Assembly: GCF_020520425.1 (NCBI RefSeq)
Contig: NC_079489.1
Span: 17,198,001-17,262,000 of the forward strand
DNA length: 64,000 nucleotides
DNA from: Spinacia oleracea
Lineage: Eukaryota > Streptophyta > Magnoliopsida > Caryophyllales > Amaranthaceae
Direction of reading: 5' to 3'
The number at the start of each line of letters is the position of its first letter. Position 1 is the first letter of the stretch. Shown in pieces: positions 8,795 through 53,603 of the stretch. Under the pieces are notes generated by a model. It saw nothing but the letters and a program-made list of their open reading frames with translations. It searched no databases and was not told where the DNA came from. The position numbers were made by a program, and so were the translations under genes.

Positions 8795-10180
8795 TGTTAG
8801 GTTATGATACATATGACATTACATAGATCATGCGGAAACAACCATTAACCCAGGACAACATATTATTTACACATAATCATATAGCATAATTTAGATGCAT
8901 ACTCTTTGTTGCGTGCCCTCCCTAGCTGCGCCCGAACCGAACAAGAACAAGTCTTTAGGACTCCAAGTGTCGTCCCTCCGTAGATAGTCCACAGCACGTC
9001 CGGATCCGCCTTAAGATTGACCAACTAGAATCGCCCTTAAGGTACTAGAAAATTTCGGCACTTTATGAGCAAGATGTGTGTTTTAATTTTCTCTCAAAAA
9101 AACTCACTTTTGAATACTTTGAAACTTGTGTATAAATAATGACCCCTAGGCCTTTATTTATAGAGTTATGGAAAAGGAATCGTAATCCTAGTAGGATACG
9201 AATTAATTGAAATTAGAATCCTACATGAATTCTATTTAATTAATTTATCCAATTAGGAATAGGAATTTAATCATACACTAACTCTTGTAGATTTAGGAAT
9301 CACGCATGAGCACAAACTCACACACACACGGCAGCCACAAGGGCTGCCCATGCGCGTGCGAGCAGCAGCCCACGCAGCGCGGCCCATGCATCCGTGGCCT
9401 TGGCGCGCGCTGGGCCTGCCTAGTGGTAGGCCTGGGCGCTGCCTTGGCTGGGCTTGTGGCGCGCGCGTGCTTGCTGGGCGATGGCCCGGCTTCGTGCTGG
9501 GCCTTCGTCCGGCAGGCCTCGTCCGATGCTAATTCGTACGATACGCTTCCGATTAAATTTCCAGTTCCGGAATTTATTTCCGATACGAACAATATTTAAT
9601 ATTTCCGATTCCAGAATTAATTTCCGTTTCGAACAAATATTTAATATTTCCGTTTCCGGAATTATTTTCCGATTCCGGTAATATTTCCGATTCTGACAAT
9701 ATTTCCGTTTCCGGCAATATTTCCGATTCTGGTAATATTTCCATTTCCAATAATATTTTCCGATACGTACCATGTTTCCGTTTCCGGCAACATCTACGAC
9801 TTGGATAATATTCATATTTCCGATACGATCCATATTTCCGTTTCCGGCCATATCATCGTTTCCGGAGTATTCATTTCTTGCCTGTGACGATCTTAGCTCC
9901 CACTGAAACCAAGATCCGTCGGTTCCGAATATTCATAGATGGAGTATTTAATGCCATTAAATACTTGATCCGTTTACGTACTATTTGTGTGACCCTACGG
10001 GTTCAGTCAAGAGTAAGCTGTGGATTAATATCATTAATTCCACTTGAACTGAAGCGGCCTCTAGCTAGGCATTCAGCTCACTTGATCTCACTGAATTATT
10101 AACTTGTTAATTAATACTGAACCACATTTATTAGACTTAACATAGAATGCATACTTGGACCAAGGGCATTATTTCCTTCA
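8795..10180 (-). repeat. 3' LTR of the copia element
   Basis: 1386 bp. It contains an AT-rich part, a GC-rich block (about 9340-9530) and a TTTCCG-rich minisatellite (about 9545-9865). Long minus- and plus-strand open frames here arise from base composition and are not treated as genes. Confidence 0.93.
9545..9865. repeat. TTTCCG-rich minisatellite within the copia LTR
   Basis: Irregular tandem units of about 12-24 bp built on AATATTTCCGTTTCCGG and AATATTTCCGATTCTGG. The same array is present in the other LTR at about 18636-18956. Confidence 0.8.
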
Positions 10181-17885: not shown

Positions 17886-19271
17886 TGTTAGGTTATGATA
17901 CATATGACATTACATAGATCATGCGGAAACAACCATTAACCCAGGACAACATATTATTTACACATAATCATATAGCATAATTTAGATGCATACTCTTTGT
18001 TGCGTGCCCTCCCTAGCTGCGCCCGAACCGAACAAGAACAAGTCTTTAGGACTCCAAGTGTCGTCCCTCCGTAGATAGTCCACAGCACGTCCGGATCCGC
18101 CTTAAGATTGACCAACTAGAATCGCCCTTAAGGTACTAGAAAATTTCGGCACTTTATGAGCAAGATGTGTGTTTTAATTTTCTCTCAAAAAAACTCACTT
18201 TTGAATACTTTGAAACTTGTGTATAAATAATGACCCCTAGGCCTTTATTTATAGAGTTATGGAAAAGGAATCGTAATCCTAGTAGGATACGAATTAATTG
18301 AAATTAGAATCCTACATGAATTCTATTTAATTAATTTATCCAATTAGGAATAGGAATTTAATCATACACTAACTCTTGTAGATTTAGGAATCACGCATGA
18401 GCACAAACTCACACACACACGGCAGCCACAAGGGCTGCCCATGCGCGTGCGAGCAGCAGCCCACGCAGCGCGGCCCATGCATCCGTGGCCTTGGCGCGCG
18501 CTGGGCCTGCCTAGTGGTAGGCCTGGGCGCTGCCTTGGCTGGGCTTGTGGCGCGCGCGTGCTTGCTGGGCGATGGCCCGGCTTCGTGCTGGGCCTTCGTC
18601 CGGCAGGCCTCGTCCGATGCTAATTCGTACGATACGCTTCCGATTAAATTTCCAGTTCCGGAATTTATTTCCGATACGAACAATATTTAATATTTCCGAT
18701 TCCGGAATTAATTTCCGTTTCGAACAAATATTTAATATTTCCGTTTCCGGAATTATTTTCCGATTCCGGTAATATTTCCGATTCTGACAATATTTCCGTT
18801 TCCGGCAATATTTCCGATTCTGGTAATATTTCCATTTCCAATAATATTTTCCGATACGTACCATGTTTCCGTTTCCGGCAACATCTACGACTTGGATAAT
18901 ATTCATATTTCCGATACGATCCATATTTCCGTTTCCGGCCATATCATCGTTTCCGGAGTATTCATTTCTTGCCTGTGACGATCTTAGCTCCCACTGAAAC
19001 CAAGATCCGTCGGTTCCGAATATTCATAGATGGAGTATTTAATGCCATTAAATACTTGATCCGTTTACGTACTATTTGTGTGACCCTACGGGTTCAGTCA
19101 AGAGTAAGCTGTGGATTAATATCATTAATTCCACTTGAACTGAAGCGGCCTCTAGCTAGGCATTCAGCTCACTTGATCTCACTGAATTATTAACTTGTTA
19201 ATTAATACTGAACCACATTTATTAGACTTAACATAGAATGCATACTTGGACCAAGGGCATTATTTCCTTCA
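17886..19271 (-). repeat. 5' LTR of the copia element
   Basis: 1386 bp, offset exactly 9091 from the other LTR and identical to it by eye except for G instead of A near 18703. Confidence 0.93.
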
Positions 19272-34130: not shown

Positions 34131-37100
34131 TTAGATTCGTGTACCTCTTGGCAAGTTACGCTTATGTTTGGGACTGAGAAGGATGTTTCTAGCTTTTTGC
34201 AGCTCACTTATTGCTTCACTTATCTTCATCCGATCACGTGGTAAATGACTTGAGCAAGCAACTCCAATCTTTATCACCGACACCATGCACTCCTCTGTTT
34301 TTCGAAGCATTTCATGGGGTTTTGGTCCCCTTTTGTCAGGTTCGTCACTTTCATCCTCCATTAGTGTAGAGTCAACAATATGTAGCACTTGGTGAGGCAA
34401 TGCTGCCTTTGCAAACATATGGAGGTTGAAATCTTCCTTGAACATATTATCGGTTGGTCTCCTTTTTGTCATTAGCTCAAGCAGTAAGATTCCGTAACTG
34501 TATAGATCAGCTTCAGGGGATGCTTCACCTCCCAAGCCGTACTCTAGGACAAATAAAATTATATCCAAAGTTAAAACTCAAATACCTATACTTGCTTATA
34601 ATTTGTTAGTTTCTGTATCCTCAGTCCTTGATTAGTTTATCAATTTTCTTTTGATATTTGATTTCACAAAGCAAGGAGTTAATTATGATTAAATAAATTT
34701 CTTTGATGACAAAAAAGCTTCATGTTATATCCTAGAATTAGGGGAAAAAAAAAGTTTAGGTACAAAAAGAGGATAATATATGCTTTTGGTTATCTAATGA
34801 GCCAATTAAGATAAAGTTATTAAGATGTCATGAACTGAAGAAAAAATATACCCTTTAAGCAAAATAATTACCTGGAGCGGCATAGCCAACAGTCCCCCTG
34901 ACTCCAATTGAACTGCTTTGGTTTGGGTGGAGGGGTTGACCAAGAACCTTTGCTAACCCGAAATCTCCGACATGGGCAACCATGTCATTATCAAGCAATA
35001 TGTTGTTTGGTTTAAGGTCGCAGTGCACTATCGGGGTTTCACACTCACATTGGAGATAGTTGAGTGCATGAGCCACGTCAATGGCTATATTCACCCTTTG
35101 GAGAAGGCTCAGGTAACCACTTTTATATAACCATTTATCAAGACTTCCATTGGGCATGAACTCATAGACAAGAGCTTTGAAATCATTTCTTTTGAAGTCT
35201 ATACTTGAGCAAGCTGTTAGTATCCCAACCAGATTACGGTGACGAATATACCTTAATGCCTCACACTCTGCCATGAAACTCTTAGACCCACCTCGTTGTT
35301 GCAAGTTGAGTACTTTTACTGCCACTGTCTTTCCATCAAGAATCCCTTTGAAAACAGATCCAAAAGTACCCGAACCGAGTAGATTTTCTTGAGAAAATCC
35401 ATCTGTTGCTTTGAGTAGCATGTCATATGATACTTTCAAGAACCTCTCCTTTACTAGTGCGTCTGATGAAGAAGTAGATTTTCTTTTTTTGCTCTGACCT
35501 TTCAAGTATAGCCATATGCATATCGCCATGACCAACACCCCAACAAATGCACTAGCCGTTATAATTGTCAGCTTGAGAGCACGAGACATTCTCCTTTTCT
35601 TCCTTTCATTCTCCACACATCTTGGTAGGTGTAGCTTAGAACTTCCTCCACAAAGGTTTTTGTTACCAACAAAAGATGTTGCACTTGAATTTGCAAAAAC
35701 TCCTTTTGTTGGAACTCTTCCCTCGAAATTGTTGTGAGATAAGTTTAAGACTATCAACGGAAAAGTAGCAAAATATTCTGGAACGGGTCCAGAAAGATTG
35801 TTCTGAGAAAGATCAAGTTTCAAAAGGCTTTTTAAAGAGGCAAATGATGGAGGAATAAGACCATGGAAGAAATTATCTTCCATGTATAATTCTTGTAGAG
35901 CAGGTAAACTGCTAAAGACATCCGGAATACTCCCAAAAAATTTATTATTTGACATTGAAAACACTTCTAAATTTATTTGCTTGCTAATCTCCATAGTTAG
36001 AGGCCCTTGAAAATGATTTTGATCTAACCATAATTGAATGAAGTTTGTAGTTTTTGCAAACAGCTCAATGGGTAAGGAACCATTGAATTGATTATATGAT
36101 AAATACAAGTATAACAAGTTTGCACAATTACCAAGGCTTGAAGGTACTCTGCCTTGCAACTTATTTTCATAAAAATTGAGATTGCTCAAATGCGATAAAT
36201 TTCCGAATGAACTGGGAATTTCACCTGTTAGTCTATTGAAACTTAGATCTAGAATCTCTAGATTTTGAAGCTCCCCAAGATCTCGAGGAACGGTTCCTGT
36301 TAGGCCACTTGATTTCATGGATAAAATCCTAAGATTGTTTAGATTACCAAGACCTACAGGGATTCCTCCAGTGACTTGATTTCCTTCAATCCAAATCTCA
36401 ATTAAATTGGTTGAAAGATTAGCCAGAACTTTTGGAACTAATCCTGTGAATTGGTTGTTCCCCACATCCAGGCTTTCCAATTTGCTACAGTTAACTAGTT
36501 TAGTAATAAAGTTGATGTCTCCTGATAAATTATTATTACTAATGACTAGCCTTTGCAGGTTATAGAGGTGGCCAAAATGTAGATTGGAAATGGTGCCTTT
36601 GAAGTAGTTGTTTGATAACTCAATGGATCGAAGACTTGTGAGGTTATGTATGGAGATTGGTAATGGCCCCGAAAAATAGTTATAAGCAAGTTGTAGATAT
36701 TGTAATTGAGGAAGTGTTAAGGCTATATGTGGCGGAATACTTCCTCGCAATTGGTTGTAAGCCAAGTACAATATCTGAAGAGAGGAGAGATTGAAGATGG
36801 ACGGGGGAATTATACCTGACAGTTGATTCATAGACAAGTCTAATATTTGAAGCGAGGAGAGGTTAGAGATGGACGGGGGAATTATACCTGAGAGTTGATT
36901 TGTTGAGAGCTCCAAACTAGTTAAGTTGGTCAACTTAGGAATGTTGTCCGGAATAGGACCTGTAAATGCATTTGTGTGGCCCTTAATACGTACCAAAGAT
37001 GTAAGATTCAGTATCAGTTTAAAGATAGGCCCAGAGAGTTTATTTTTGTGAAGCCAAAGCCATTTGAGGTTGGACAACGCTCCTAATTCCATCGGAAGTT

Positions 37101-37599
37101 CACCTTCTAGATTGTTGATAGCAAGAGAAAGATTTTGTAAGTTGATGCAACTTGATAAACTGGCTGGAATTCCTCCACTGAGGGTGTTGTTAGGAAGATA
37201 TAGTGATTGTAGCCTCAAAAGACGGCCGATTTCAGGGGGAATTGAGCCATGTAGGCTATTACTGTCAAGCCAAATGATATTTAGAAAACTAAGGTTCCCT
37301 ATGAAGGGTGATATGGTTCCTGACAAACCTCTACCAAACAGCTTTAGGCCAGTTACTCTTTTATGTTTGCGGCCGCAAATGACACCCTCCCATAAACAAT
37401 GGTGAAGAGAGTGATTCCATGAGCTTAAAACTCCGTTGGGATGAAGATCGATTAATTGACTCTTGATTGCTAGCAATGCCATATAGTCTGTTTCGTTACT
37501 AATGGCATTAGCTACTCTAAGTGGATGTGGCTGCATTGCAATTACAACAACCAAGAGGATAACAGCTGCTTGTGTGTATAACAGAGGTTGTGGCTTCAT
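34131..37599 (-). CDS. LRR receptor-like kinase, subfamily XII (EFR/Xa21/FLS2-like), apparently intact
   Basis: Two exons: 37599-34872 and 34543-34131, with intron GT...AG of 328 bp (donor CCAG|GTAATT, acceptor CCTAG|AGTACG). They join in frame at the conserved AAPE|Y position and give 1046 aa. Order: signal peptide (residues 1-31), LRRNT cap with C68/C75 (SSWNHSLHHCLWEGVICG), about 22 LRRs to about residue 625, C-terminal cap (NLCGG), transmembrane segment about 675-699, and a kinase. The kinase has glycine loop GSGTFGSV (741-748), VAVK lysine 762, HCD at 859-861 and DFG at 879-881; C before D makes it a non-RD kinase. Non-RD LRR-XII kinases are plasma-membrane immune receptors (EFR, FLS2, Xa21) working with BAK1-type co-receptors. 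The ligand cannot be told from sequence. All catalytic motifs are present and no frameshift is seen. Confidence 0.92.
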
Positions 37600-37648
37600 T
37601 TTCTCTTCTTTTGTATTATTTGGTGATTTTTAGCTTCCTTTCTTACTC

Positions 37649-41130: not shown

Positions 41131-41713
41131 TGCTTTAGATGCTTACATCTTGGAGAATTCGCTCACTCTTATCTGATTTGAGTATAAATAATGTTACATT
41201 GCATATGCATGCAGAAGAACTACAGTAGTACACACATTGACAGGATTCGATCCCTCTCATAGTCTCATTTAGCCATGTCAAATATGTGTATATAGTGGCG
41301 GATGTTCTACATGGCTCGGGTGGACCCGGTCCCCCGTCTTCAAAATTTTGTTGCATATTTTTAGTTACGGCCCCCCTAAAATTTATGTATACTCCGTAAT
41401 AGTATAAATTACATACTATATTGCTCGATTTTTCTATTGCCTCCACCTTGTAAAAGTGTCCAAGATCCGTCGATGTGTATATTGATCTAGTTGTAACTTG
41501 TAAGACATTGCGTCAAACATTTATTATCAGTAATAGGTCACTTTTGACATATTTCAATTTTCATGATGTTGTGTTGCTATGAAATTTACGACATTTCTAA
41601 CATCTTTTGTTAATGAATTTATATTACGTAATTTAGTGTGTTGTTCGATTATTTTGAGTAACACTTGTGAATTGTGATTTACTCTGTAAATTGATCGAAA
41701 TAAAATTAATTAC
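41131..41713. other. Intergenic sequence left of the Tat element
   Basis: A stretch at 41290-41400 (GGCGGATGTTCTACATGGCT, later GGCCCCCCTAAAATTTATG) resembles the end of a degraded mobile element. Nothing can be assigned firmly. Confidence 0.35.
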
Positions 41714-42243
41714 TGTTCCGGCGGCGGACTCGGAACAGGAAAAGGATGACTGACTCCCGACTGAGGTTGCTGACTGGATCCTGCACAGTGAAGCCGTTAA
41801 CTAGCCTCGGGGGTGATCCGAGAATTACCCCTCCGATGCTTAAGTCAGATTATGCTGGTAGCTCTGTAATAAATGCTCATAAGAATGATTGGATTGGAAT
41901 TGCGTACCTTTGGCATTGATGGGGGTCCGTATATATAGACGGGTTATTTGTACGGAGGACCCGGGTTATTACCCGTTGGTTCCGGATCCTCCCTTTCGGC
42001 TCTGATAGGCAGATGATGTCAGAGAACTGCCGACTGGGTTTGTAAACCCTGGATGCCGACTGCACCTTTGGTGCTTCTTGTGAGTATATGTCTATGTTAC
42101 AGCTGTTATGGGTTGTCCTACCGGCATACCGGTAGGGCTACCCGTACAACTAGCCCCCTCAGAGTGACTACAGCTGGTTTTTACGGTCTGTAGTTGCTCT
42201 GATAAAAAGAAAAAAGCGAAAGCTGGGGTAAGCCCCCTATACA
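41714..42243 (-). repeat. 3' LTR of the Tat element
   Basis: 530 bp, offset exactly 11355 from the other LTR. The 62-codon minus-strand open frame seen in both LTRs is not treated as a gene. Confidence 0.93.
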
Positions 42244-42262
42244 ACTAGCCCCCTCGGGGACG
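42244..42262 (-). promoter_or_regulatory. Polypurine tract region of the Tat element
   Basis: The minus strand reads CCCCGAGGGGGCTAGT directly before the 3' LTR. The G-rich run is in the expected place for plus-strand priming. Confidence 0.55.
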
Positions 42263-42454
42263 ATCAACACCCCACGGGTGTGATTGTTCTGTAGATGGTT
42301 GTTTTACAGTGCGGTTTTTAGCTCAATACTTGTTCTGATGTCACGACTAGCCCCCATTAGGACAAGGATTGATTGCTTTAAGTGGAAGGTTTTTTGTATG
42401 CCGGCTGCCCATGTTTGTGTTTGATTCTCTTGGCTGACTGTTATCCTTGATTTC

Positions 42455-42692
42455 TTTGAATGACTAGTCCCCTTGAGTTTCTAGGCTGACTAGCCCCCTT
42501 GACTTTTTAGGCTGACTAGCCCTCTTGACTTTATTAGGCTGACTAGCCCCCTTGACTTTTTAGGCTGACTAGCCCCCTTGACTTTTTAGGCTGACTAGCC
42601 CCCTTGACTTTATTAGGCTGACTAGCCCCCTTGACTTTATTAGGCTGACTAGCCCCCTTGACTTTATTAGGCTGACTAGCCCCCTTGACTGA
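42455..42692. repeat. 27-28-bp minisatellite in the Tat 3' region
   Basis: About eight units of GGCTGACTAGCCCCCTTGAC followed by TTTATTA or TTTTTA, nearly identical to each other. The unit core CTAGCCCCCT also occurs in the LTR and next to the polypurine tract, so the array may have grown from that sequence. Confidence 0.9.
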
Positions 42693-42834
42693 CACGTGGT
42701 GACGGTTCATTTTTCTTTATGCGCGTGGCGGGAGATTTTGAAAAGTGTTTTGGACACGTGTCGGCCATCCGACAAGTGTGGGGAGTTGTGATATTTTCAA
42801 CCGCCCATATCTGCTTCTTGTCGTTTCAACTTCC

Positions 42835-42855
42835 TTTCGTTCTTTTAAATAACCG
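42835..42855 (+). promoter_or_regulatory. Possible TATA element for the antisense gene
   Basis: TCTTTTAAATAACCG contains a TATA-like TTTAAATAA about 395 bp upstream of the antisense ATG at 43243, followed by a pyrimidine-rich leader. Weak evidence. Confidence 0.3.
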
Positions 42856-43242
42856 TTTCTTCTTTTTTTTTTCTTCATTTCCGCTCTTTCTTATTTTCCT
42901 TTGCCAATTTTCGCGCTGCCAATTTGCTCTCTTTCTCTCTCTTGTTTTTCCTCTTAATTTTTGTCCGTTTCTTCCTGCCGTACTTTTCCGTTGGGGTTTG
43001 GTTGTCTCTCTTGGTAAGTTTTGAACTTAGTCTGGTTTTTTTTTTTAGGTTGTCTGCTGTTTTGTTAAGGTTTGGCTGTCTGATTTTCTCGTGTTGCTCT
43101 TTCAGTTGGGTTGTTTGAGGGACTTTGCAGCTGTTTGAGAGTGAATTTCCAGAATTAGGTACGGTTTCTGGTCTTACTTTCTCTTTTTGTCGGGTGTTTA
43201 TGTTCTTTGCTTGCATGCGTTTTGAGTGGGGGTAGCCAAAAC

Positions 43243-46200
43243 ATGACTGGTAGGGTTGGGGTTAGTAACGTGATAGATCTGTCAGACACAAGTAGCGATT
43301 CTGGTATAGAACTAAATATGGACGGGAATACGGCCGGTAGTAATGCTAAGAATGCTGGGTGGGGGGTAAAATCGAACACGCCACCTCCTTTTGCGGAGTT
43401 TATGGGTGGGAATCCTGTTACCGGCCCTTTTATACCCATGACTGCGGCTCAGTTTACTCGCTCACAACAGCTACATGGCCTGCGGGCACGAATGGAGAGA
43501 GAGCTTAGGCCGAATGAGCATAACGTGCCGGCTGGGGAGCCGATATTAGACGTAGATCCGATTTCGGTTAGGTACCATTTGCGGGATTATCGGGAATTTA
43601 CTCAGCCTGGCGGCTCTGGTCTTGGGGAGTACGGTACTAACATCGGCAATATATATGTTTCTAGGGTCATGCCGTCAGACGCCGAACCGTCTACAAGTAA
43701 TCGACGGGCCGGGAAGGATCCTGCCGTCCATGATGCGGGTGAGGTTGATGCCGCCGTTAGTGGTGATGTGCCTTCCACCCCTGGCGACTCCATACTGGAG
43801 TCTTCTGAGTCTGGGTCTCCCGGGCTAAGGGCGCCGCCCATTGCCGACTCTGATGAAGATGAGGAGGATGCTGCGATTTTGCAGCAAGTGTTTGAAGAAG
43901 AGGCCTTGGACGCCGATGTGAATTTCAAAGGTGAGGCTGCCGCGTTCTTGGTTCCGGCCCCTCCTCCTAATGATTCTGCTGCCCTCACCACTGAGATAGA
44001 TAGTGACTTTGTAAAAGAGGCCGCTGCCAACCGGCATTCTGAGGTTGGTGGTCGCTTTTTGGGTTTACCTGAGGGCTACAAGTTGACTGTGCCGAAAGAA
44101 GAGCAAACGGTGGCCGACTGTCCCGTAGGTCATGTTGTTGTATACACGAAGATGTTCGACTATGGGTTGCGCTTTCCCTTGCACCCGTTCATTGAGAAGG
44201 TTCTGCGGGCCTGGAATGTCGGCCTCGTTCAATTATCGCCCATAGTTATTCGCAATCTGGTTGCGTACACTTGGTTATTTTCATTCAAACAGTGGCCCTT
44301 GACCCTCAACCTTTTCAAAAAACTGCACTGGCTGAAGCGTGATGGGAAAGATACCGGCTGGTGGACGATCTTTACCAAGAGTCAGCGTCAGACTGTGAGC
44401 CCCCGGCTCTCCAGCTGCAAGGACTGGAAGGACCACTTCTATTTCATGGCTGTTCCCGAAGATTACCCCCTTCGGCGTACATTCTACCAGCCTAAACCTA
44501 GGATGGAACAATTTGACCAAGCCGACCTTGGGCCCCGAGAGCAACGTGCGTACGACAGGCTGCTGGTTGACTATGTTGACGTTGGGCTGTCTAAGCCTAA
44601 AACCTTGCCGGCTTTTTGGCTTCCTCCTGCCGGTTATATTCTTAGTCCTGCCGCTTTGGGCGCAGTCGGTCTTGCACCTACACATCCCCTTGGTAAATGC
44701 AGTTGTTTGCCTGCACTCGTTATCTGCTGTATTTGTTTATATTTCTTGGATCTCTGTTGTGTCGTGTTGCGTTTGTTAAAAAAAAAATTCTGACTTCCTC
44801 GTTCATTTATTTATTTATTTATATTATTTTTCTTAGGGCACCATCTTTTAAACAAGGCTTCACTCGGCCTTGACAAGAATTGGAGGGTTGCTGAACAGTG
44901 TCCGGCGGGTCCTGCTGAGAAATATTACACTGTTTCTACTTTCTGCGCGAAAGCTTGTCGTGGTCGGTCAGCCAGCTTTGTGACTCCTTCTGCCGTTGTG
45001 GACCGAGGTGTTGTTCCTCGCGTTGTTCGAACAAAGGTTCCGGCAGCTGACCAGGCTACATCCTCAGCCCAAGACGAAATGACTACTGGCAGGTTTGCTT
45101 CTCTTCCTACCGGTCGGGGGGGACATGCTACTCGGAAGAGGTCTTCCAGCCAGGCGAAGGCCAGTTCTCCCAAACGGTCAAAAAATGACGCTGCGAAGAC
45201 AGCGCAAGAGAAGGTGAAAGACGTCTACGCCAGCGTCGACAAGCCCTTGCAGACATCTGGCGCTGGAAAGAAGATTGCTGAACAGCCTGCTCAGTCGGTT
45301 GAGATTTTGGATGCTGACCTTTTGTCCAAATTGAACCGGAAGCAGGTGTTGAGCGATTTGATTAGCGACCCGATCCATCCTGCGCCTGTGTCGAGGCATA
45401 GCCCTTCCATGAACCGGTCTGCCAGCTCGGCCTCTAAGTATGGGGTTATAGTTCGTTCTGGGGGGGTTCATCGAGGACAAAACTGTTGTGCTATCTCCGG
45501 ATATTCTTGCCGGTCTAGCCGCTGCTCCCGGTCATGCTGAAGAGCACTGGCAGCCGCAGAATGATGTTCTGAGGGGTGAGTCTATCCTTTTTGACCGTCC
45601 TAAAGACGGAGGTACACTGGGCTACCGGTCTCTGCGCCAAGTTGTTACACCCGCCGACGGTACGCCCCAGGAGATTGAGACGCCGGCTGCACAGTTGATG
45701 CATGACCTGTACTCGGTATTTTACTTCCCTCTTTGACTTGCTTGTTTTTTATACTTGCTTTTATTTTCGGCTCTGAGCGATTTTACTTTCCTCAGGTGAC
45801 GCAATCTGCTACCGAGCTTGTGGCGTGCTATCGGAGCTATCAGCGTCGTTTAAAACGATCGCAAGCTGAGAAAGAGAAGCTTCAGACGGACCTTGCTGAA
45901 TCGGTCAGGACTGAAGGTGACTGCCGGAAGGAGATTGCGAGACTTGAGCTGGATGTTATTGCCGCAGGCAATAGGAAGGCTGAACTAGAGCTTCTTCCAG
46001 CCAAGTTGACGGCCGAAGAGCAGAAGACGGCTGAGCTGCAGATCAAGCTGGATGCGGCGCTGCAGGCGGCCCAAGATGCTGAGAAAGCTGCTAAGGATGA
46101 TCGCAAGGCTGTGGCGCTGAAGGCTGTGCAGAAATTCATGAAGTCTGACTTCTACTGCGAGGAGATGAAGGGGCGCTACAATGGTGGGTGGACTGCAGCT

Positions 46201-46410
46201 CATCGTTGTGCCGTCAAAGCCTTGACGCTGACTGAGGATGCCTGGGGTAAGGTGGAGGGATCCTATGAAGAGGGTGGCCATATTGATCCGACTGGCATGG
46301 AGACCCAGACCTTCCCAGACATCGTCATTCAGAATGCTGACCCTCGCCTTCTGCCCGACAGGGAGATTCCCGAGTCTGCTTACTGGAGTGATGCAGACTA
46401 CTCAGCTTGA
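43243..46410 (+). CDS. Antisense spliced gene of the Tat element (Transposase_28-like domain plus coiled coil)
   Basis: Three exons on the plus strand: 43243-44692, 44837-45715 and 45796-46410, with introns GT...AG of 144 and 80 bp (donors CTTG|GTAAAT and CTCG|GTATTT; acceptors TCTTAG|GG and CCTCAG|GT). Joined, they would encode about 980 aa. The N-terminal 280 residues are acidic and low-complexity. A globular region follows (RFPLHPFIEKVLRAW, QLSPIVIRNLVAYTW, WLKRDGKDTGWWTI), which resembles the plant domain called putative gypsy-type transposon (Pfam Transposase_28). Exon 2 is basic and disordered. Exon 3 is a long coiled coil (residues from KRSQAEKEKLQTDLAES on). A run of seven G at 45460-45466 shifts the frame by one base in exon 2, so this copy may be inactive or the run may be miscounted. 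First ATG chosen; an upstream TTG-led extension is not credible. Extra antisense frames are known in Tat elements, but their role is unknown. Confidence 0.75.
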
Positions 46411-47248
46411 CGGTCTTGGCAGTCATCACCAGGCTCTTCTTGTGGTTCTTCCAACAGTTTTTTCCGGCCTCATACTTGTTAATGTCTGTTGGTAGCTTTT
46501 GAATATCATTTAGCGGATGTAACTTATAAACAATTTCCTTTTTTGGTACCTTTTAGCTGTTTGTGGCACTTTGTCTTTTGCCGTGTGTTAACTGTTTCAA
46601 GAACGTTATTGTCGTCTTGGCTGCGCCGTCTGAGGCGTATGTTTGTGCCTTTTAGCAGCTACTCACTCCGCATTTAGTTATTTTTGGGTGGTGGCTGTCG
46701 TCCCTGTATTTGTTTAAAACCTATGTGATGCACTTGATGGATTATCCGTTTGTTTTTATTCAATTTGTCACGTAATGGCGTCGTTTTGCCTTTGATTTTA
46801 TTATATATTGCATCTTGCCTCTTGTCGACTGGGCCAATGTGTTCAACCCTTGCATATGCTTATGTCGTATTTTGCCTCGTTGCTGACTGAGCCAATGTGC
46901 TCAACCTTTTATTTCGTTTTGTCGTATCTTGCAACATTGCTGACTGAGCCAATGTGCTCAACCTTTTATTTCGCTTTGTCGTATCTTGCAACATTGCTGA
47001 CTGAGCCAATGTGCTCAACCTTTTATTTCGTTTTGTCGTATCTTGCAACATTGCTGACTGAGCCAATGTGCTCAACCTTTTATTTCGTTTTGTCGTATCT
47101 TGCAACATTGCTGACTGAGCCAATGTGCTCAACCTTTTACTTCGTTTTGTTTATGCCGTATAGTTTCCCTGGAATATAGTTGTAGCTCATATATTAGATT
47201 TCAAAATATGGCACTGTCGGCCCTACTACATCATGTTTTCATACAACT
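46411..47248. other. Tat 3' untranslated region between pol and the antisense gene
   Basis: Converging ends of the antisense gene and pol. Apart from the 57-bp minisatellite no feature is seen. Confidence 0.6.
46820..47150. repeat. 57-bp minisatellite in the Tat 3' region, about five units
   Basis: Units of GCTGACTGAGCCAATGTGCT followed by CAACCTTTTATTTCG and TTTTGTCGTATCTTGCAACATT repeat every 57 bp. The inner units are nearly identical and the first is diverged. Because 57 is divisible by three, open frames run through it on both strands; these are not genes. Confidence 0.92.
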
Positions 47249-49534
47249 TCACACATGGAATTTTCTTAAAGTATCTGCGTTCCATGAGTTCTTCAGCGGT
47301 GTTCCATTCATCTCCATTAGTCTGTATGATCCAGCTACCACTTCTTCCCATATCTGGTAGGGCCCTTCCCAATTTGCAGTCAGTTTTCCTTGTTTTTGAG
47401 CTTTGCCGGTTGCTGCCGTCCGGCGGAGTACAAGGTCGCCTACCTCCAGCTTCCTATGTTTTACTCGCTTGTTGTAGGCCCTGCTCATTCTGTTTTTGTA
47501 TGCGGCCGACCTAATTTCCGCCTGCAGTCTGACCTCTGGTAGGAAATCAAGCTGGTGTCTGAGTAAGCTGTCGTTTCCCTGTTCTTCATAATGCTGGATG
47601 CGAAAGGTGGGTAGTGCTACTTCAGCCGGTATGACTGCTTCTGATCCGAAACACAGTTTGAAAGGACTCTCTCCTGTTGCTTCTTTAACCGTCGTTCTGT
47701 TACCCCATAGAACCTCTGGGACTGTGTCTGCCCACTTGCCCTTGAACTCATCCAACTTTTTCTTAAGGGCTACGAGTATTTGTTTGTTTGCAGCCTCGGC
47801 TTGCCCGTTGCTCTGCGGGTGGCAGACTGAGGCATATGCGAATTTGATCCGGTAGTCTGCCAAGAATGCTCGTATAGGTTCGCAGTCGAACTGGCATCCG
47901 TGGTCGAATACTATTGCTGTCGGTATTCCAAATCTTGTTATGATGTTTTTCCAGATGAACTTCCGTACCTGGTTGGCTGTTATTTTTGCTACCGGCTCGG
48001 CCTCAATCCATTTTGTGAAGTAATCGACGGCAACAATCAAGAACTTCCTGCCTCCTGAGGCTGTTGTGAAGGGTCCCACGATATCCATTCCCCACTGGGC
48101 GAATGGGATTGGATTCAAAATGGGCATCAAGTCGTTTGCTGGCATACGTATTACTGGGGCAAATAGCTGGCATTTTTCGCATTTCTTGACGTAGCTCTGT
48201 GCGTCCTCCAGCATGGTTGGCCAGTAGTAACCTTGTCTTTGGCAGATCAAAGCAAGTGTTTTTCCTCCTACATGGTTTCCGCATATTCCTTCATGCATTT
48301 CTTCGATTAACCTTGCGGATTCGTATGCCGTCAAACACCGCAGCAGGGGGAGGCTGAAGGCTCTTTTATAGATTTGCCCCTGATATATGACGTACCAGCA
48401 GATGTCTTTTTTGATTTTCTTTGCCTCCCTGATATCGGCCGGGAGAACTCCAGTCGTCTTGTACGCCCAGATATCATCGTACCACTCTTTGTTTGCCGTG
48501 ATGGCCATTATTTCCTTTCCTTTTTCCTCCGTACTCCTTCTGTGCATGATTTCTATCATTACTGATCGACTGAGCTCGATTGTTTTCGAACTGGCCAGTT
48601 TTGCTAGGCTGTCTGCGGCAGTGTTCAACGCTCTGGGGACCAATTCGATGTCAAAAGCTTCTAACTTCGCTGTCAGCGTCTTCAGTTTTTCTTGATACCG
48701 CCGCATTGACGGCTCTTTTGTTTCATACTCTCCCGAAAACTGATTTGCCACCAACTGAGAATCCGTTGTCATTACTATCCTCTTGGCATCTGCCAACAAG
48801 CATAGCTGTACCCCTGCAATGGCTGCTTCATATTCTGCTTCGTTGTTCGAAGCTGCGAAAGTGAATCTGATTGCGTATTCGAACTTATCTCCTGTCGGAG
48901 AGATCATGACAACGCCGGCTCCCGCTCCCGACTGAGCGGCTGAACCGTCTACTGATACTTTCCAGGATTCTGCTTTGGTTTCCTCTTCTTGATAGGATGC
49001 TTCAACTACGAAGTCAGCCAAAGCTTGTGCTTTTATTGCATTGCGCGGGTGAAACTCAAGATCGTACTCCGACAGCTCTATTGCCCATCGCAACAGTCTG
49101 CCGGCTGTATCCATTTTTTGCAAAGCCTTCTCTAGTGGAAAGTTCGTCAGAATTTGTATGGTATGTGCGTCAAAATATGGTCTGAGCTTTCTGGCGGCTA
49201 TCAGGACTGCATAGGCCACTTTCTCTATCAGCGAGTATCTTGCTTCTGCCGGATTCAAAATGTGGCTGACAAAGTATATCGGCTGCTGGACTTTGTCTTT
49301 TTCACTGATTAGTACGGCAGCAACGGTTTGGGCTGAAGCGGACACATATAATTGTAGCTTGTCGCCCTCTTCCGGCCTGGCTATCGTCGGTAAAGCACGA
49401 AGATGTTCTTTTACCTTCTCGAAGGCCCTTTCCTCGGTTTCCCCCCACCGGAGTTTTCCATTCTGCTTAAGAGTGTTAAAAAATGGAATCGACCTGTCGG
49501 CTGATTTGCTAACAAATCTTGTCAGAGCCGCCAT
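47249..49534 (-). CDS. Tat pol part 2: RNase H, second RNase H (aRNH) and integrase
   Basis: 761 codons. Residues 1-180 hold the degenerate first RNase H (NPAEARYSLIEKVAYAVL, AIKAQALADFV) whose first catalytic Asp is lost (LYVSAS). Residues 190-320 hold the archaeal-type RNase H with D196, E235, D258 and D308. The integrase zinc finger follows (H414, H421 and CEKC at 452-455), then the core triad D484, D544, E580, and a C-terminal domain ending GKLTANWEGPYQIWEEV. The usual TDNG around the second Asp reads FDHG, which may weaken activity. The frame is offset from the upstream gag-pro-RT frame and overlaps its end by 13 bases. There is no heptameric slippery site at the overlap, so the shift looks like a one-base deletion near 49545 rather than programmed frameshifting. 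The apparent ATG at 49534 is therefore internal. Confidence 0.88.
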   Translation of the reverse strand: MAALTRFVSKSADRSIPFFNTLKQNGKLRWGETEERAFEKVKEHLRALPTIARPEEGDKLQLYVSASAQTVAAVLISEKDKVQQPIYFVSHILNPAEARYSLIEKVAYAVLIAARKLRPYFDAHTIQILTNFPLEKALQKMDTAGRLLRWAIELSEYDLEFHPRNAIKAQALADFVVEASYQEEETKAESWKVSVDGSAAQSGAGAGVVMISPTGDKFEYAIRFTFAASNNEAEYEAAIAGVQLCLLADAKRIVMTTDSQLVANQFSGEYETKEPSMRRYQEKLKTLTAKLEAFDIELVPRALNTAADSLAKLASSKTIELSRSVMIEIMHRRSTEEKGKEIMAITANKEWYDDIWAYKTTGVLPADIREAKKIKKDICWYVIYQGQIYKRAFSLPLLRCLTAYESARLIEEMHEGICGNHVGGKTLALICQRQGYYWPTMLEDAQSYVKKCEKCQLFAPVIRMPANDLMPILNPIPFAQWGMDIVGPFTTASGGRKFLIVAVDYFTKWIEAEPVAKITANQVRKFIWKNIITRFGIPTAIVFDHGCQFDCEPIRAFLADYRIKFAYASVCHPQSNGQAEAANKQILVALKKKLDEFKGKWADTVPEVLWGNRTTVKEATGESPFKLCFGSEAVIPAEVALPTFRIQHYEEQGNDSLLRHQLDFLPEVRLQAEIRSAAYKNRMSRAYNKRVKHRKLEVGDLVLRRTAATGKAQKQGKLTANWEGPYQIWEEVVAGSYRLMEMNGTPLKNSWNADTLRKFHV

Positions 49535-52500
49535 TCTTCCTGCAGCCTTTGTACATCTTTGATGCTTTTTGGTTGAGGCAGACTGAGTATCGCTTCTACC
49601 TTATCTGGGTTTGCGTCTATGCCTCTCTCGCTGACAAGGAAACCCAAGAATTTCCCCGATTTCACTCCGAACACACATTTCTTGGGGTTTAGTTTCATTT
49701 GGTAACGGCGCAGAGTTTCAAACGTTTCCCTGAGGTCATCTAAATGATCGGTCTCCAATTTGCTTTTCACTATGGAGTCGTCGACGTATACTTCAATGTT
49801 GCGGCCTTTTTGGTTTGCGAACACTCTGTCGACCAGTTTTTGGTACGTTGCCCCAGCGTTCTTTAACCCAAACGGCATAGCCTTGTAACAGAATACTCCC
49901 CCCTCAGTGATGAATGCTGCTTTTTTCCTGTCGGCCTTTGCGAGGCTGACTTGGTGGTACCCGGAGAATGCGTCAAGGAAACTGAGCAGCGCGTGGCCAG
50001 ATGTGGAGTCGACTAGCCTGTCGATTCTTGGTAGTGGGTAGCAGTCTTTTGGGCATGCTCTATTAAGGTTTGTGAAATCTACGCACATTCTCCACGAGCC
50101 GTTTGACTTCTTAACCATTACGACGTTGGCCAACCACTCTGGGTAGTCGCATGGTTCAATAAATCCTGCTGCCAACAACTTTTCTACCTCTTCCTGTATT
50201 GCTTGATTTTTTTCTGTTGAGAAGTTTCTTTTCTTTTGCTTTACCGGCCTGACTGCTCTGTCGACATTCAGTCGGTGCTCGATTACCTCCGAGCTTATAC
50301 CGGGAATTTCGTCTGCGGAAAATGCGAACACATCCGCATGTTCTCTCAACAGACCGATCATGTTTACCCGCAACTGGGGGTCAATGTCGGTTCCTAATTT
50401 TACTGTTCTGCCAGTTTCTCCTTCTACCAGCTCGACTTCTTCTGACCTTCCTCCGGCCTCTACCCTAGGTAGAGAAGTCCCCTTTTCGATGCTTTCGATT
50501 GTGGGTGACTCCCTTTTCTGCCTTTTCTCCTTCTTGGGCAAAAGAGATGACTCGCCCCCCAATCTTGGGGCTTGACCCTTTGCCGGTCTTTTCATTGCTG
50601 CCTCTCTCGCTATATTCCTAGATGGGGTCAGTCGGCCTGGTGTTTTTAATGCCGTCAAGTAGCATGATCTTGCTGAATCTTGACTGCCTCGGATTCTTTC
50701 AGCCTTCTCAAAGTTAGACATGTATATCATAGTTAGATGGTATGTTGATACCACTGCTTGTGCATCGTGGATGAATGGCCGGCCCACTATTATGTTGTAT
50801 GCAGCAGGCACTTTGATTACTAAGAAGTCTACCATTAGGTCCCTTGCGGCTCTACCTTCTCCAATCTGCACTGGTAGCCTGATGCTACCTTCCGGGAAGA
50901 CTGTGGCTCCGGAGAATCCTATCACAGGATAGTTGACTCGTGTGAGTTCTGTCTCGTCTATTTTCAGCTGAACGAAGGCTTCCCAAAAGATAATGTTCGC
51001 TGAACTCCCTCCATCCACCAGTATTCGTTTCACTGGGAAGTTTGCTATTTCGAGGCCCAAAACCAGTGGATCGTCGTGAGGGTATATAATTCCGCGACAG
51101 TCGTCTGGGGTGAATGAAATATTTGGCATGACTTGGGTTGCCGGCCATTTTATGGTGCTGTGGTAGTTTACCAGGTGGCGGTGTTCGCCCAGACTTCTGC
51201 CGGCTCCACTGATTGTTCCTCCATGGCACGGTCCTCCAGATATGACCCATACTGTCGGCCCCTTCTGGCCACTGTTTCTAGCCTCCCCATTCCGACTGGT
51301 TTCTGGTGCTTTCTGCTCTATTCGGAGCGGTGTTTGGGTGGATGGTAATCTGTTGTTTGTGTTATTGCTTTGCCAATTGCTATTCTCTTGGTTGTTGTTG
51401 TTCTGTCGGGCTTTATATTGTGTCAGATAGCCTCTCCTGATCATATCCTCGATGTTATCCTTCAAATCTCTGCAGTTTTCCGTATAGTGTCCACAGTCAT
51501 CATGGAATGCGCAGTACTTCGACTGTGGTCGGGGTTTGTCGCTCATTGGTGGAGGCCTCTTCCAGTTTTCGTTCTTGTTGACATTGTAAATCGCGGCTCT
51601 TGGGGCGTTCAATGGAGTGTATTCGTGGAATGTGGGGTATATGCTGGTTGATTGTTTCTGGTAATCCCTCCCTCTTGGGTCTTTCCTCTGTTCGTCCTTT
51701 CTGAACCCCCTGTTCTGATTCTGCTGCGCCGGCTGAACCGGCCTTGGTGCGGCATTTCTGGTCTGTGCCGACTGATAGTGATTTGGGATTGTCATCAGCT
51801 CGTCGCTTTTGATGTATTCGTGGGCCTTTATCAGTGCGCTTCCCAAATCGGTGAAGGATTTTCTTCCCAAGTATTTTTTGAACTCGCAGTGGTTCATTCC
51901 TCTCATCAGGGCCACCACAGCTATCTCTTGCTGCAAGTTTGGTATGCTGGTGGACTCGTTGTTGAATCTGGTGAGGTAATCTCTTAAGGATTCTCCGCTT
52001 CTCTGGGTGACTGCCATCAGCTCTCCCGACGTTTTCTTTCTCTGCTGCCGGCTGATGAACCGTAGCATGAACTCTGTTTCTAACTGTCGGTAATTATATA
52101 CCGACCCCTTTGGTAGTCCCTTATACCAGCCGGATGCCACTCCCAGCAGTGTTGAGGGAAATATCTTGCACCACATGGCGTCGGAATCTGTATACAACAT
52201 CATATGTTGCTCAAATGTGTTGCAGTGGACCTCCGGATCTGTGGATCCGTCGTACTTGCAGAGTGGGAACTTCAATTTCTCCATTGGTTCCTCCAGAATG
52301 TCCGCGCACAGGGGGGAGTTTGCAGGTTGGATGGTGTAACGGCGCGACGCGTATCTCTGGGGTGCTTCTCTTGTCTCTTCGATGACCATGGGTTCCGGCC
52401 GACTGCGCAGAGCAATCGCCTGGTTTGTATTTGGGTGTTGTTCTTGTTGCACTAGGATCTGTTCTCCGAATAGGTTTCTTATCGGCAATCTCTTCCGTTT

Positions 52501-52953
52501 TTCGCCGACTGGTGTTTCTGCAGTCTGGTGTATGACTGTCCTGGGTACAGGTTCTGTGTTTGCCTTTCTTGCTGGCTTCAAGGCCGACAACGCGGCCATC
52601 ACCGCTCTTGCTGTAGCCAACTGTTCCTCCGAGAACTGACCGGCGAGTTCAGACGGCATTTGCGTATCGTCCTGGGCTGGGCTTTTGGGCTCTTCTTCTG
52701 AGTCGTCGTCCTCGACTGAGTATCCCAGAACATGCAAGGGTGTTGCTGCAGTCGTAGTTTTGCTGACGACCGACTGGCTCCCTAGCTGGGGGGTGGGTTG
52801 GTCATTGACGGGTGTTATTATTGGTTCTGCCGAGAATAGCGTGGGTTTCAATGGGGTTGTTGTTTTTGTCGTCTGCGTACTCTGTGGGGTTGCTTTCGAG
52901 GCCTGCTTTTTGCTTCTCTTATACGAATCTGACTGCGTACTCTCCATTTTCAA
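49522..52953 (-). CDS. Tat gag-protease-reverse transcriptase polyprotein (frame ends early)
   Basis: 1143 codons from ATG at 52953. The first 215 residues are low-complexity. The retrotransposon gag domain is at about 220-385 (EFMLRFISRQQRKKTSGELM, SLRDYLTRFN). The Tat-type zinc knuckle YCAFHDDCGHYTENC is at about 480-494. Protease has the active site VDGGSS at about 646. RT runs from about 880 with FLDAFSGYHQ (about 992), FGLKNAGATYQKLVDRVF and catalytic YVDD at 1056-1059. Translation ends prematurely at 49522, just after DVQRL, where the normal product would continue into RNase H; the downstream domains are in another frame. Gag, protease and RT are fused in one frame, as usual for the lineage. 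The protein would make virus-like particles and cDNA in the cytoplasm if complete. Confidence 0.9.
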   Translation of the reverse strand: MKMESTQSDSYKRSKKQASKATPQSTQTTKTTTPLKPTLFSAEPIITPVNDQPTPQLGSQSVVSKTTTAATPLHVLGYSVEDDDSEEEPKSPAQDDTQMPSELAGQFSEEQLATARAVMAALSALKPARKANTEPVPRTVIHQTAETPVGEKRKRLPIRNLFGEQILVQQEQHPNTNQAIALRSRPEPMVIEETREAPQRYASRRYTIQPANSPLCADILEEPMEKLKFPLCKYDGSTDPEVHCNTFEQHMMLYTDSDAMWCKIFPSTLLGVASGWYKGLPKGSVYNYRQLETEFMLRFISRQQRKKTSGELMAVTQRSGESLRDYLTRFNNESTSIPNLQQEIAVVALMRGMNHCEFKKYLGRKSFTDLGSALIKAHEYIKSDELMTIPNHYQSAQTRNAAPRPVQPAQQNQNRGFRKDEQRKDPRGRDYQKQSTSIYPTFHEYTPLNAPRAAIYNVNKNENWKRPPPMSDKPRPQSKYCAFHDDCGHYTENCRDLKDNIEDMIRRGYLTQYKARQNNNNQENSNWQSNNTNNRLPSTQTPLRIEQKAPETSRNGEARNSGQKGPTVWVISGGPCHGGTISGAGRSLGEHRHLVNYHSTIKWPATQVMPNISFTPDDCRGIIYPHDDPLVLGLEIANFPVKRILVDGGSSANIIFWEAFVQLKIDETELTRVNYPVIGFSGATVFPEGSIRLPVQIGEGRAARDLMVDFLVIKVPAAYNIIVGRPFIHDAQAVVSTYHLTMIYMSNFEKAERIRGSQDSARSCYLTALKTPGRLTPSRNIAREAAMKRPAKGQAPRLGGESSLLPKKEKRQKRESPTIESIEKGTSLPRVEAGGRSEEVELVEGETGRTVKLGTDIDPQLRVNMIGLLREHADVFAFSADEIPGISSEVIEHRLNVDRAVRPVKQKKRNFSTEKNQAIQEEVEKLLAAGFIEPCDYPEWLANVVMVKKSNGSWRMCVDFTNLNRACPKDCYPLPRIDRLVDSTSGHALLSFLDAFSGYHQVSLAKADRKKAAFITEGGVFCYKAMPFGLKNAGATYQKLVDRVFANQKGRNIEVYVDDSIVKSKLETDHLDDLRETFETLRRYQMKLNPKKCVFGVKSGKFLGFLVSERGIDANPDKVEAILSLPQPKSIKDVQRLQEEWRL

Positions 52954-52973
52954 GGGTGATGATTATGATTGAT

Positions 52974-53016
52974 TTCTTTTTTCTTTTTTTCTTTTTTTTT
53001 TTTTTTTTTTTTTTTG
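52974..53016. repeat. T-rich homopolymer in the Tat 5' leader
   Basis: Poly-T on the plus strand (A-rich in the sense of the element), directly upstream of the gag ATG, broken by three C. Length may be unreliable. Confidence 0.85.
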
Positions 53017-53047
53017 CCTGGCTGTGGGTTCTGCTTACAAGTGGGGG

Positions 53048-53068
53048 TCCCCTCCTTCTAGCACCAAT
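53048..53068 (-). promoter_or_regulatory. Primer binding site region of the Tat element
   Basis: The minus strand reads ATTGGTGCTAGAAGGAGGGG immediately after the 5' LTR end CCGGAACA. Position is right for a primer binding site; I cannot name the tRNA. Confidence 0.55.
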
Positions 53069-53598
53069 TGTTCCGGCGGCGGACTCGGAACAGGAAAAGG
53101 ATGACTGACTCCCGACTGAGGTTGCTGACTGGATCCTGCACAGTGAAGCCGTTAACTAGCCTCGGGGGTGATCCGAGAATTACCCCTCCGATGCTTAAGT
53201 CAGATTATGCTGGTAGCTCTGTAATAAATGCTCATAAGAATGATTGGATTGGAATTGCGTACCTTTGGCATTGATGGGGGTCCGTATATATAGACGGGTT
53301 ATTTGTACGGAGGACCCGGGTTATTACCCGTTGGTTCCGGATCCTCCCTTTCGGCTCTGATAGGCAGATGATGTCAGAGAACTGCCGACTGGGTTTGTAA
53401 ACCCTGGATGCCGACTGCACCTTTGGTGCTTCTTGTGAGTATATGTCTATGTTACAGCTGTTATGGGTTGTCCTACCGGCATACCGGTAGGGCTACCCGT
53501 ACAACTAGCCCCCTCAGAGTGACTACAGCTGATTTTTACGGTCTGTAGTTGCTCTGATAAAAAGAAAAAAGCGAAAGCTGGGGTAAGCCCCCTATACA
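53069..53598 (-). repeat. 5' LTR of the Tat element
   Basis: 530 bp. See the whole-element entry for boundaries and target duplication. Confidence 0.93.
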
Positions 53599-53603
53599 AT
53601 TAC

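Follow-up and report, generated by a model that had tools for sequence, protein, structure and literature searches.

Is an antisense reading frame inside a plant retrotransposon a gene with introns, and where does its protein end? These questions are raised by a stretch of 64,000 nucleotides (nt) of the Spinacia oleracea genome (contig NC_079489.1, positions 17,198,001 to 17,262,000; the whole stretch is called the window here, and positions are counted from its first letter). The window holds a Ty3/gypsy long terminal repeat (LTR) retrotransposon on its minus strand, with a long frame on the plus strand between pol and the 3′ LTR. Our reading, to which we give a probability of roughly three in four, is that this frame is the antisense TRP28 gene of a Retand element, which would be expressed from a spliced three-exon mRNA and give rise to two forms of protein by readthrough of a UGA stop codon into a conserved tail. 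It also seems likely that several deeply diverged families use type II readthrough, with UGA-CGG and a long-range stem, and so obtain a second form, longer at the C-terminus, of a regulatory protein encoded by a spliced antisense gene. The antisense TRP28 gene itself is already known and was published as unspliced open reading frames (ORFs), introns not being mentioned in the portions of those texts examined. New are the conservation of the introns, the UGA-CGG stop and the conserved tail proposed behind it.

A three-exon antisense gene in a Retand-lineage element

A preliminary description of this DNA had proposed an antisense gene of three exons with good splice sites, encoding about 980 residues in a frame that is open except at one G-run. 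This structure is confirmed, with refined borders (Table 1). The joined coding sequence of 2941 nt, about 980 codons, carries a single frame break, at the G-run near 45460. With exon 2 split at this run, all four exon pieces are free of stops in the chosen frame, compared with 11–42 stops in the other five frames of exon 1, 3–11 before and 2–7 after the run in exon 2, and 3–18 in exon 3. The break in exon 2 is an exception within the family: among 29 close siblings of the element, 23 read on through the G-run, two are broken as in the window, three are shifted otherwise and one is unreadable. The exons have a GC content of 53–55% and the introns of 30–35%. We regard the antisense gene as real at the level of its sequence.

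The encoded protein has most of the parts that had been anticipated. A profile search places the expected Transposase_28 domain (PF04195) at residues 299–364, with 29.4 bits against a curated cut-off of 26.2, and the linker encoded by exon 2 is indeed basic, with 33 K/R against 17 D/E in 206 residues. The acidic stretch (16 D/E and 2 K/R in 60 residues) is present, at about residues 181–240 and not at the very N-terminus where it had been placed. The long coiled coil fared likewise in part: in a single-sequence AlphaFold2 model, exon 3 forms one helix over residues 3–116, with block values of the predicted local distance difference test (pLDDT) of 76–94 up to residue 100 that drop beyond it and a mean over the whole model of only 63.7. 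Such a model is consistent with a coiled coil, but a crude heptad test on residues 1–125 of exon 3 was not significant, 201 of 500 shuffles scoring as well.

The element that carries this gene is a recent Ty3/gypsy insertion, its LTR pair being 99.8% identical (one mismatch in 531 nt). A single frame of its pol region encodes RT_RNaseH (residues 80–178), RVT_3 (216–335), Integrase_H2C2 (429–479) and rve (498–594), so that a second RNase H stands before the integrase; an additional RNase H (aRH) between RNase H and integrase marks the Ogre and Retand lineages (PMC6317226), and the feature is thus shared with Ogre. The region between pol and the 3′ LTR measures about 5.0 kb (42245 to 47249) and holds the antisense PF04195 gene, an arrangement described as typical of Retand in a survey of these elements (PMC11963269). 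The antisense gene is therefore the accessory TRP28/Transposase_28 gene of a Retand-lineage element of the Tat clade, which agrees with the earlier view of it as an accessory gene of a Tat-clade element. Among the roles suggested for its product, nothing that turned up pointed to a movement protein or a silencing suppressor, no test having been aimed at either.

Purifying selection and conserved splice borders

Relatives were sought in the same genome, whose 242 contigs total 894 Mb (about 879 Mb of it in six of them), scoring the best candidates of each search. At least 150 places match PF04195; searches with exon 3 and with the DNA of the antisense gene gave at least 151 and at least 40 matches, respectively. 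We compared 30 loci around exon 3 (the window copy, L009, and its siblings), nine divergent loci (L039–L047) and ten exon 1 loci, together with four pieces of pol and 33 pieces downstream of the gene, eight of them second fetches. The gene is followed by pol on the opposite strand in four of the nine divergent elements, which are all those with sufficient downstream sequence.

The ratio of nonsynonymous to synonymous divergence (dN/dS) points to purifying selection on every exon piece, in keeping with the earlier suggestion that selection has kept the frame open. Against the divergent loci L039, L040 and L041, ratios were 0.08–0.19 for every alignable exon piece, far from 1; exon 1 gave 0.078–0.079 to L039 and L040 (it is not alignable in L041), and the two pieces of exon 2 gave 0.08–0.18. 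The corresponding values for pol were 0.055 (774 codons, L039) and 0.033 (296 codons, L040). For the six more distant loci most dS values are saturated; five ratios could be obtained, of 0.26–0.46. Among the ten exon 1 siblings, eight gave 0.14–0.26 and the other two show three nonsynonymous changes and no synonymous one; one of the ten has a premature stop. For exon 3, the ratio was 0.10–0.29 in 24 of 29 siblings and 0.59–0.88 in four very close ones, the last having no synonymous change, and five of the 29 carry a premature stop.

Alignment of the DNA to L039 and L040 gave the same picture, with 73–81% identity in the exon pieces and 53–59% in the introns, which are near saturation. In all four exon pieces of these alignments, differences at third codon positions are about two to five times as frequent as at first or second positions, an excess that is less marked in L042, L045 and L046. 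All three exon indels in L040 are multiples of three; L039 has four of other lengths, including one of 275 bases. The alignments of L045 and L046 are too diverged for indels to be judged.

The intron borders are conserved among copies, as would be expected of the splice sites proposed earlier. In the siblings, intron 2 keeps both GT and AG in all 29; of the 25 copies in which intron 1 is readable, all keep its GT and 24 its AG. The borders of the divergent loci other than L043 were read by eye: GT of intron 2 is present in eight of eight and AG in seven of eight (it is lost in L041), and both borders of intron 1 are present in four (L039, L040, L045 and L046) of the six readable loci, L044 having the donor only and L042 being unclear; exon 1 is not alignable up to the border in L041 and L047. 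Most GT and AG borders are thus preserved in families whose exon 3 proteins are about 33% identical. Conserved GT-AG borders combined with fast-diverging introns across families are the pattern of a spliced gene, and we consider the three-exon structure settled as far as comparison of the copies goes. In four more distant PF04195 loci (L095–L098), several open pieces on the plus strand behind the domain suggest exon structures of their own.

A conserved coding tail behind the stop codon

Exon 3 ends in a UGA codon followed directly by CGG. Just 3′ of the interval that had been described, and in the same frame as exon 3, lies a conserved stretch of 23 codons, RSWQSSPGSSCGSSNSFFRPHTC, which closes with a second stop; both the UGA-CGG stop and the tail had been overlooked. 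We read this region in frame in 59 copies, comprising 30 close siblings including the window, the nine divergent loci and 20 further ones. The first stop is TGA in 56 copies and TAA in three, and the second stop varies (TAA, TAG or TGA). The hexamer is TGACGG in 48 copies and TGAAGG in three, eight others occurring once each. Exceptions are L042, counted here as TGA, in which the frame is lost near the end, L039, in which the stop region is lost, L041, which has an earlier TAA two codons ahead of the TGA, and L078, with TAA at the place of the stop itself. The tail begins in frame behind the first stop in 52 of the 59 copies, two of which (L021 and L067) have altered ends. The extended stop motif, written as the pattern TGANGGNNNNGGCAGTCATCACC, has 191 matches in the genome and its reversed control none. 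The same motif has no match in viral contigs, and searches with exon 1 of viral contigs and genome contigs yielded no confirmed relatives.

About the first 200 bases behind the stop are 81–88% identical to L039 and L040, well above the introns. In an alignment of this block (A1; 33 sequences, 57–100% identical to the window), columns 26, 29, 32, 35, 38 and 41 are variable and their neighbours nearly invariant, and these are the third positions of the codons for Ser, Ser, Cys, Gly, Ser and Ser. Fitch counts on the tree of the block gave 3, 8 and 31 changes at first, second and third codon positions over columns 21–41 (binomial p about 1e-7, the columns not being fully independent), and 8, 11 and 40 over columns 3–41. 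Of the 23 tail residues, 16–18 are retained in L045, L046, L047 and L074, the four sequences that were compared, while exon 3 has only 33–36% protein identity to the window in L045–L047 and 33–43% across L043–L047. In-frame coding sequence under selection thus appears to continue behind the stop.

Our first reading of the block, as a conserved non-coding RNA element, was replaced after the triplet pattern in the A1 columns was seen; Rfam has no match in the window at the gathering threshold. A hydrophobic peptide in a plus-strand frame and an acidic one in a minus-strand frame over the block were also set aside; as judged by eye, the third-position changes in codons 24–41 are synonymous in the frame of exon 3, and several of them are nonsynonymous in either of the other readings.

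A predicted long-range stem

Type II readthrough signals consist of UGA followed by CGG or CUA and, mostly, an extended stem that often begins about 8 nt 3′ of the stop (PMC3542737). A stem at the corresponding place is predicted here. Its 5′ arm begins at the eighth nucleotide behind the TGA, and its partner, conserved as well, lies about 260 nt further on; the two 13-nt arms of this helix (P1) are complementary at all 13 positions in the window, three of the pairs being G-U. Both arms are present, with at most three mismatches per arm, in 58 of the 59 copies (L072 has none). In seven sequences examined for pairing, 13 of 13 positions pair in the window, L074, L086, L092 and L093, 12 in L091 and 11 in L073, and the observed pairing was matched by 0–1 of 500 shuffles in six of the seven and by 28 of 500 in L073. 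RNAalifold finds P1 unaided, together with an inner GGCAC/GTGCC stem, and the pair probability of P1 over 33 sequences has a mean of 0.82 and a median of 0.98. Synonymous change also appears to be suppressed within the arm: its two fourfold sites have 0 and 1 changes, and the five outside it have 3–7.

Plant RNA viruses and alphaviruses use UGA-CGG with a stem of this kind as their type II signal, and we infer that readthrough of the antisense gene's stop would be programmed. We propose a plus-strand transcript whose promoter, by analogy with maize Grande, probably lies in the interval from the 3′ LTR to 43243, and which would be spliced into a three-exon mRNA for the protein of about 980 residues. 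The introns are antisense to the genomic RNA and so would survive each round of transposition. The majority of ribosomes would terminate at the UGA, and a minority, aided by CGG and the long-range stem from 8 nt downstream, would read through and add the Ser/Cys-rich tail. Two forms would result of a protein that probably binds nucleic acids in the nucleus and regulates the element.

Weighing the readings

Several observations count against the proposed readthrough gene. All relatives come from one genome, and 30 of the 59 copies are close siblings, so that the counts are not independent; the seven sequences of the pairing test represent fewer than seven families. Seven of the 59 copies lack an in-frame tail (L039, L040, L041, L042, L068, L072 and L086), and the motif was not found in the four more distant PF04195 loci L095–L098. 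The first three tail codons have neither a clear third-position excess nor clear coding constraint, and 7 of the 33 changes in codons 24–41 are not at third positions. One multi-copy family (L044, L073 and L075) has TGA AGG, and its P1 pairs at 11 and 12 of 13 positions in the two of its sequences that were examined, L073 and L091. The pair probability of P1 falls below 0.5 in five of the 33 sequences (L067, L068, L070, L084 and L087). No stem pair has changes on both sides, so that there is no covariation, and the observed pairing is no better than in columns whose partners were shuffled among sequences; the pairing therefore rests on conservation, complementarity and suppressed synonymous change. 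Folded as a single sequence, the region has no exceptional stability (z −1.57, matched by 6 of 100 shuffles; minus strand −0.90). The L044, L073 and L075 family, in which the arms lie closer together (198–200 nt over all) and the tail has another end (GVAAFKD or GVAVFKD), offers a natural comparison for the strength of readthrough.

The best rival would have the tail translated from an alternative splice form, in which the acceptor GGCAG|TCATCA (46422/46423) connects the tail to exon 2 or to part of exon 3, so that the UGA is spliced out. GGCAG is invariant or nearly so (30–33 of 33 sequences per column), the candidate acceptor is in phase 0 as is intron 2, and coding constraint becomes clear only from the codons CAG/TCA on, but the pyrimidine tract is poor, with five T in the 17 bases before CAG compared with 12 and 8 in the two real acceptors. 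Such splicing would also leave unexplained why the TGA CGG hexamer is kept and why the fourfold sites of TCA TCA, which are complementary to the distant arm, hardly change, and we hold it to be unlikely. A lower probability again falls to the view that the block is an untranslated structural or protein-binding DNA or RNA element of both convergent transcripts, serving 3′ end formation, packaging or TRP28 binding. The arms do form an inverted repeat between the convergent genes and belong to the most strongly conserved bases there; what speaks against this view is the third-position pattern in the frame of exon 3, which accounts for 31 of the 42 changes in columns 21–41 and lies outside the arm.

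Antisense TRP28 ORFs occur in 97% of Retand clusters in the survey (PMC11963269), and the gene might be just such an ordinary ORF, its tail a relic of a longer frame cut by a nonsense mutation. A relic would decay, however, and the tail is conserved behind the same TGA in L043–L047 in spite of the divergence of exon 3, which makes this very improbable. The preliminary description had also considered a host gene taken over long ago, for which one may cite that introns are unusual in retroelement genes. Such a capture finds little favour: homologues are spread over deeply diverged families of the same genome, the PF04195 gene is standard in Retand, and the portion of the survey examined reports no similarity outside transposable elements and describes transduced genes as usually sense-oriented (PMC11963269), no search of host genes of our own having been made. 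We give capture from the host the lowest probability of these alternatives.

Relation to known antisense genes and readthrough systems

The gene resembles the Retand TRP28 genes of the survey, which found their antisense ORFs with ORF Finder and described them as ORFs (Vicient 2025, PMC11963269), in its place between pol and the 3′ LTR, its antisense orientation, its PF04195 domain and the tandem repeats of the region; TRP28 is predicted there to bind DNA. The separate Smc-like antisense ORFs of that survey may correspond to the helical exon 3 found here, in which case the TRP28 and Smc-like ORFs may be parts of one gene that ORF scans have broken up. Words starting with intron or coiled are absent from the survey text that was searched, in which splicing and exons are mentioned only in reference titles. 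For years, Retand antisense genes have been reported with no function assigned to them; a conserved three-exon structure under purifying selection indicates that they are real protein genes.

Gene 23 of Grande, which has its own promoter and a nuclear product, and the antisense ORFs of RIRE2, Retand and PvRetro13 are likewise antisense accessory genes, with the difference that splicing or readthrough is not described for them in the part of the source examined, which calls for antisense and spliced transcripts to be studied (PMC7264820). Splicing in a Tat-clade element is known from the gag-pol intron of Ogre (PMC6317226). Among open-licence papers, our literature search found no readthrough in Retand, and the matches listed, judged by title and the start of the abstract, included no case in which an antisense gene of a plant LTR retrotransposon is read through, and none on introns of antisense gypsy ORFs.

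The closest parallels to the stop are the type II signals of tobra-, peclu-, furo-, pomo-, alpha- and coltiviruses, which share UGA CGG and a stem, here predicted, about 8 nt 3′ of the stop (PMC3542737). The present candidate differs from them in that it concerns an antisense, intron-bearing gene of an LTR retrotransposon and would extend the protein by only 23 residues. Within plant LTR retrotransposons, the env-like gene of SIRE1 is expressed by stop codon suppression (PMC2829016), a likeness to the readthrough proposed here; SIRE1 is, however, a Sirevirus of the Ty1/copia group with its stop between pol and env, whereas the candidate described here is antisense, belongs to Ty3/gypsy and concerns a C-terminal tail. 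If our reading is correct, type II readthrough would extend from RNA viruses to the antisense gene of a plant retrotransposon, and antisense genes, introns and viral recoding would be joined in one retroelement. The viral-type signal provides a precise, testable handle: a 300-nt cassette, a short conserved tail and a protein that would exist in two forms.

Features of the element and of the window

The coordinates of the gene, the predicted stem and the element are collected in Table 1.

Table 1. Positions in the window of the antisense gene, the readthrough region and the host element
Feature	Position	Strand	Remarks
Exon 1	43243..44692	+	ATG, acidic stretch, Transposase_28; open frame; PF04195 E 9.8e-7
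Intron 1	44693..44836	+	GT-AG, phase 1, 30% GC
Exon 2	44837..45715	+	Basic linker; frame broken in window copy at G-run
Intron 2	45716..45795	+	GT-AG, phase 0, 35% GC
Exon 3	45796..46410	+	Long helix; ends with TGA 46408–46410
Putative leaky-stop hexamer TGA CGG	46408..46413	+	UGA then CGG, as in type II readthrough
Candidate readthrough tail	46411..46479	+	In frame, conserved, 23 residues
Second stop	46480..46482	+	TAA in window
P1 5′ arm (predicted)	46418..46430	+	Centroid fold
P1 3′ arm (predicted)	46687..46699	+	Centroid fold
Inner stem 5′ arm GGCAC (predicted)	46565..46569	+	
Inner stem 3′ arm GTGCC (predicted)	46645..46649	+	
Further possible stem	46555–46559 with 46656–46660	+	AGCTG with CAGCT
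LTR retrotransposon	41714–53599	−	Two LTRs and gag/pol frames
3′ LTR	41714..42244	−	531-nt direct repeat matching 53069–53599, 1 mismatch
5′ LTR	53069..53599	−	531-nt direct repeat
Duplication ATTAC (5 bp)	41709–41713 and 53599–53603		Flanks element
Gag-to-reverse transcriptase open frame	49522..52962	−	Retrotrans_gag E 3.8e-15, RVT_1 E 2.1e-31
RNase H/second RNase H/integrase open frame	47249..49600	−	RT_RNaseH, RVT_3, Integrase_H2C2, rve, in that order

The duplication flanking the element overlaps base 53599, so that the LTR proper may be one base shorter. The two open frames of gag and pol overlap in different frames (49522–49600), and pol of the window copy may be broken or shifted despite the near-identical LTRs. 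The stretch from the 3′ LTR to the antisense gene, in which the promoter of the latter would be expected, contains a 26-nt tandem repeat at 42421–42690. Beyond the predicted stem, between the convergent antisense gene and pol (46411–47249), a 57-nt tandem array occupies about 46812–47150, and related arrays of other extents are present in L039 and L040.

Elsewhere in the window, a direct repeat of 1386 nt (8795–10180 and 17886–19271) is 99.9% identical, with starts 9091 bases apart, and perhaps represents the LTRs of another recent element. Two open frames on the minus strand, 34131–34577 and 34855–37629 (within 34131–37629), read by eye like one leucine-rich repeat receptor-like kinase.

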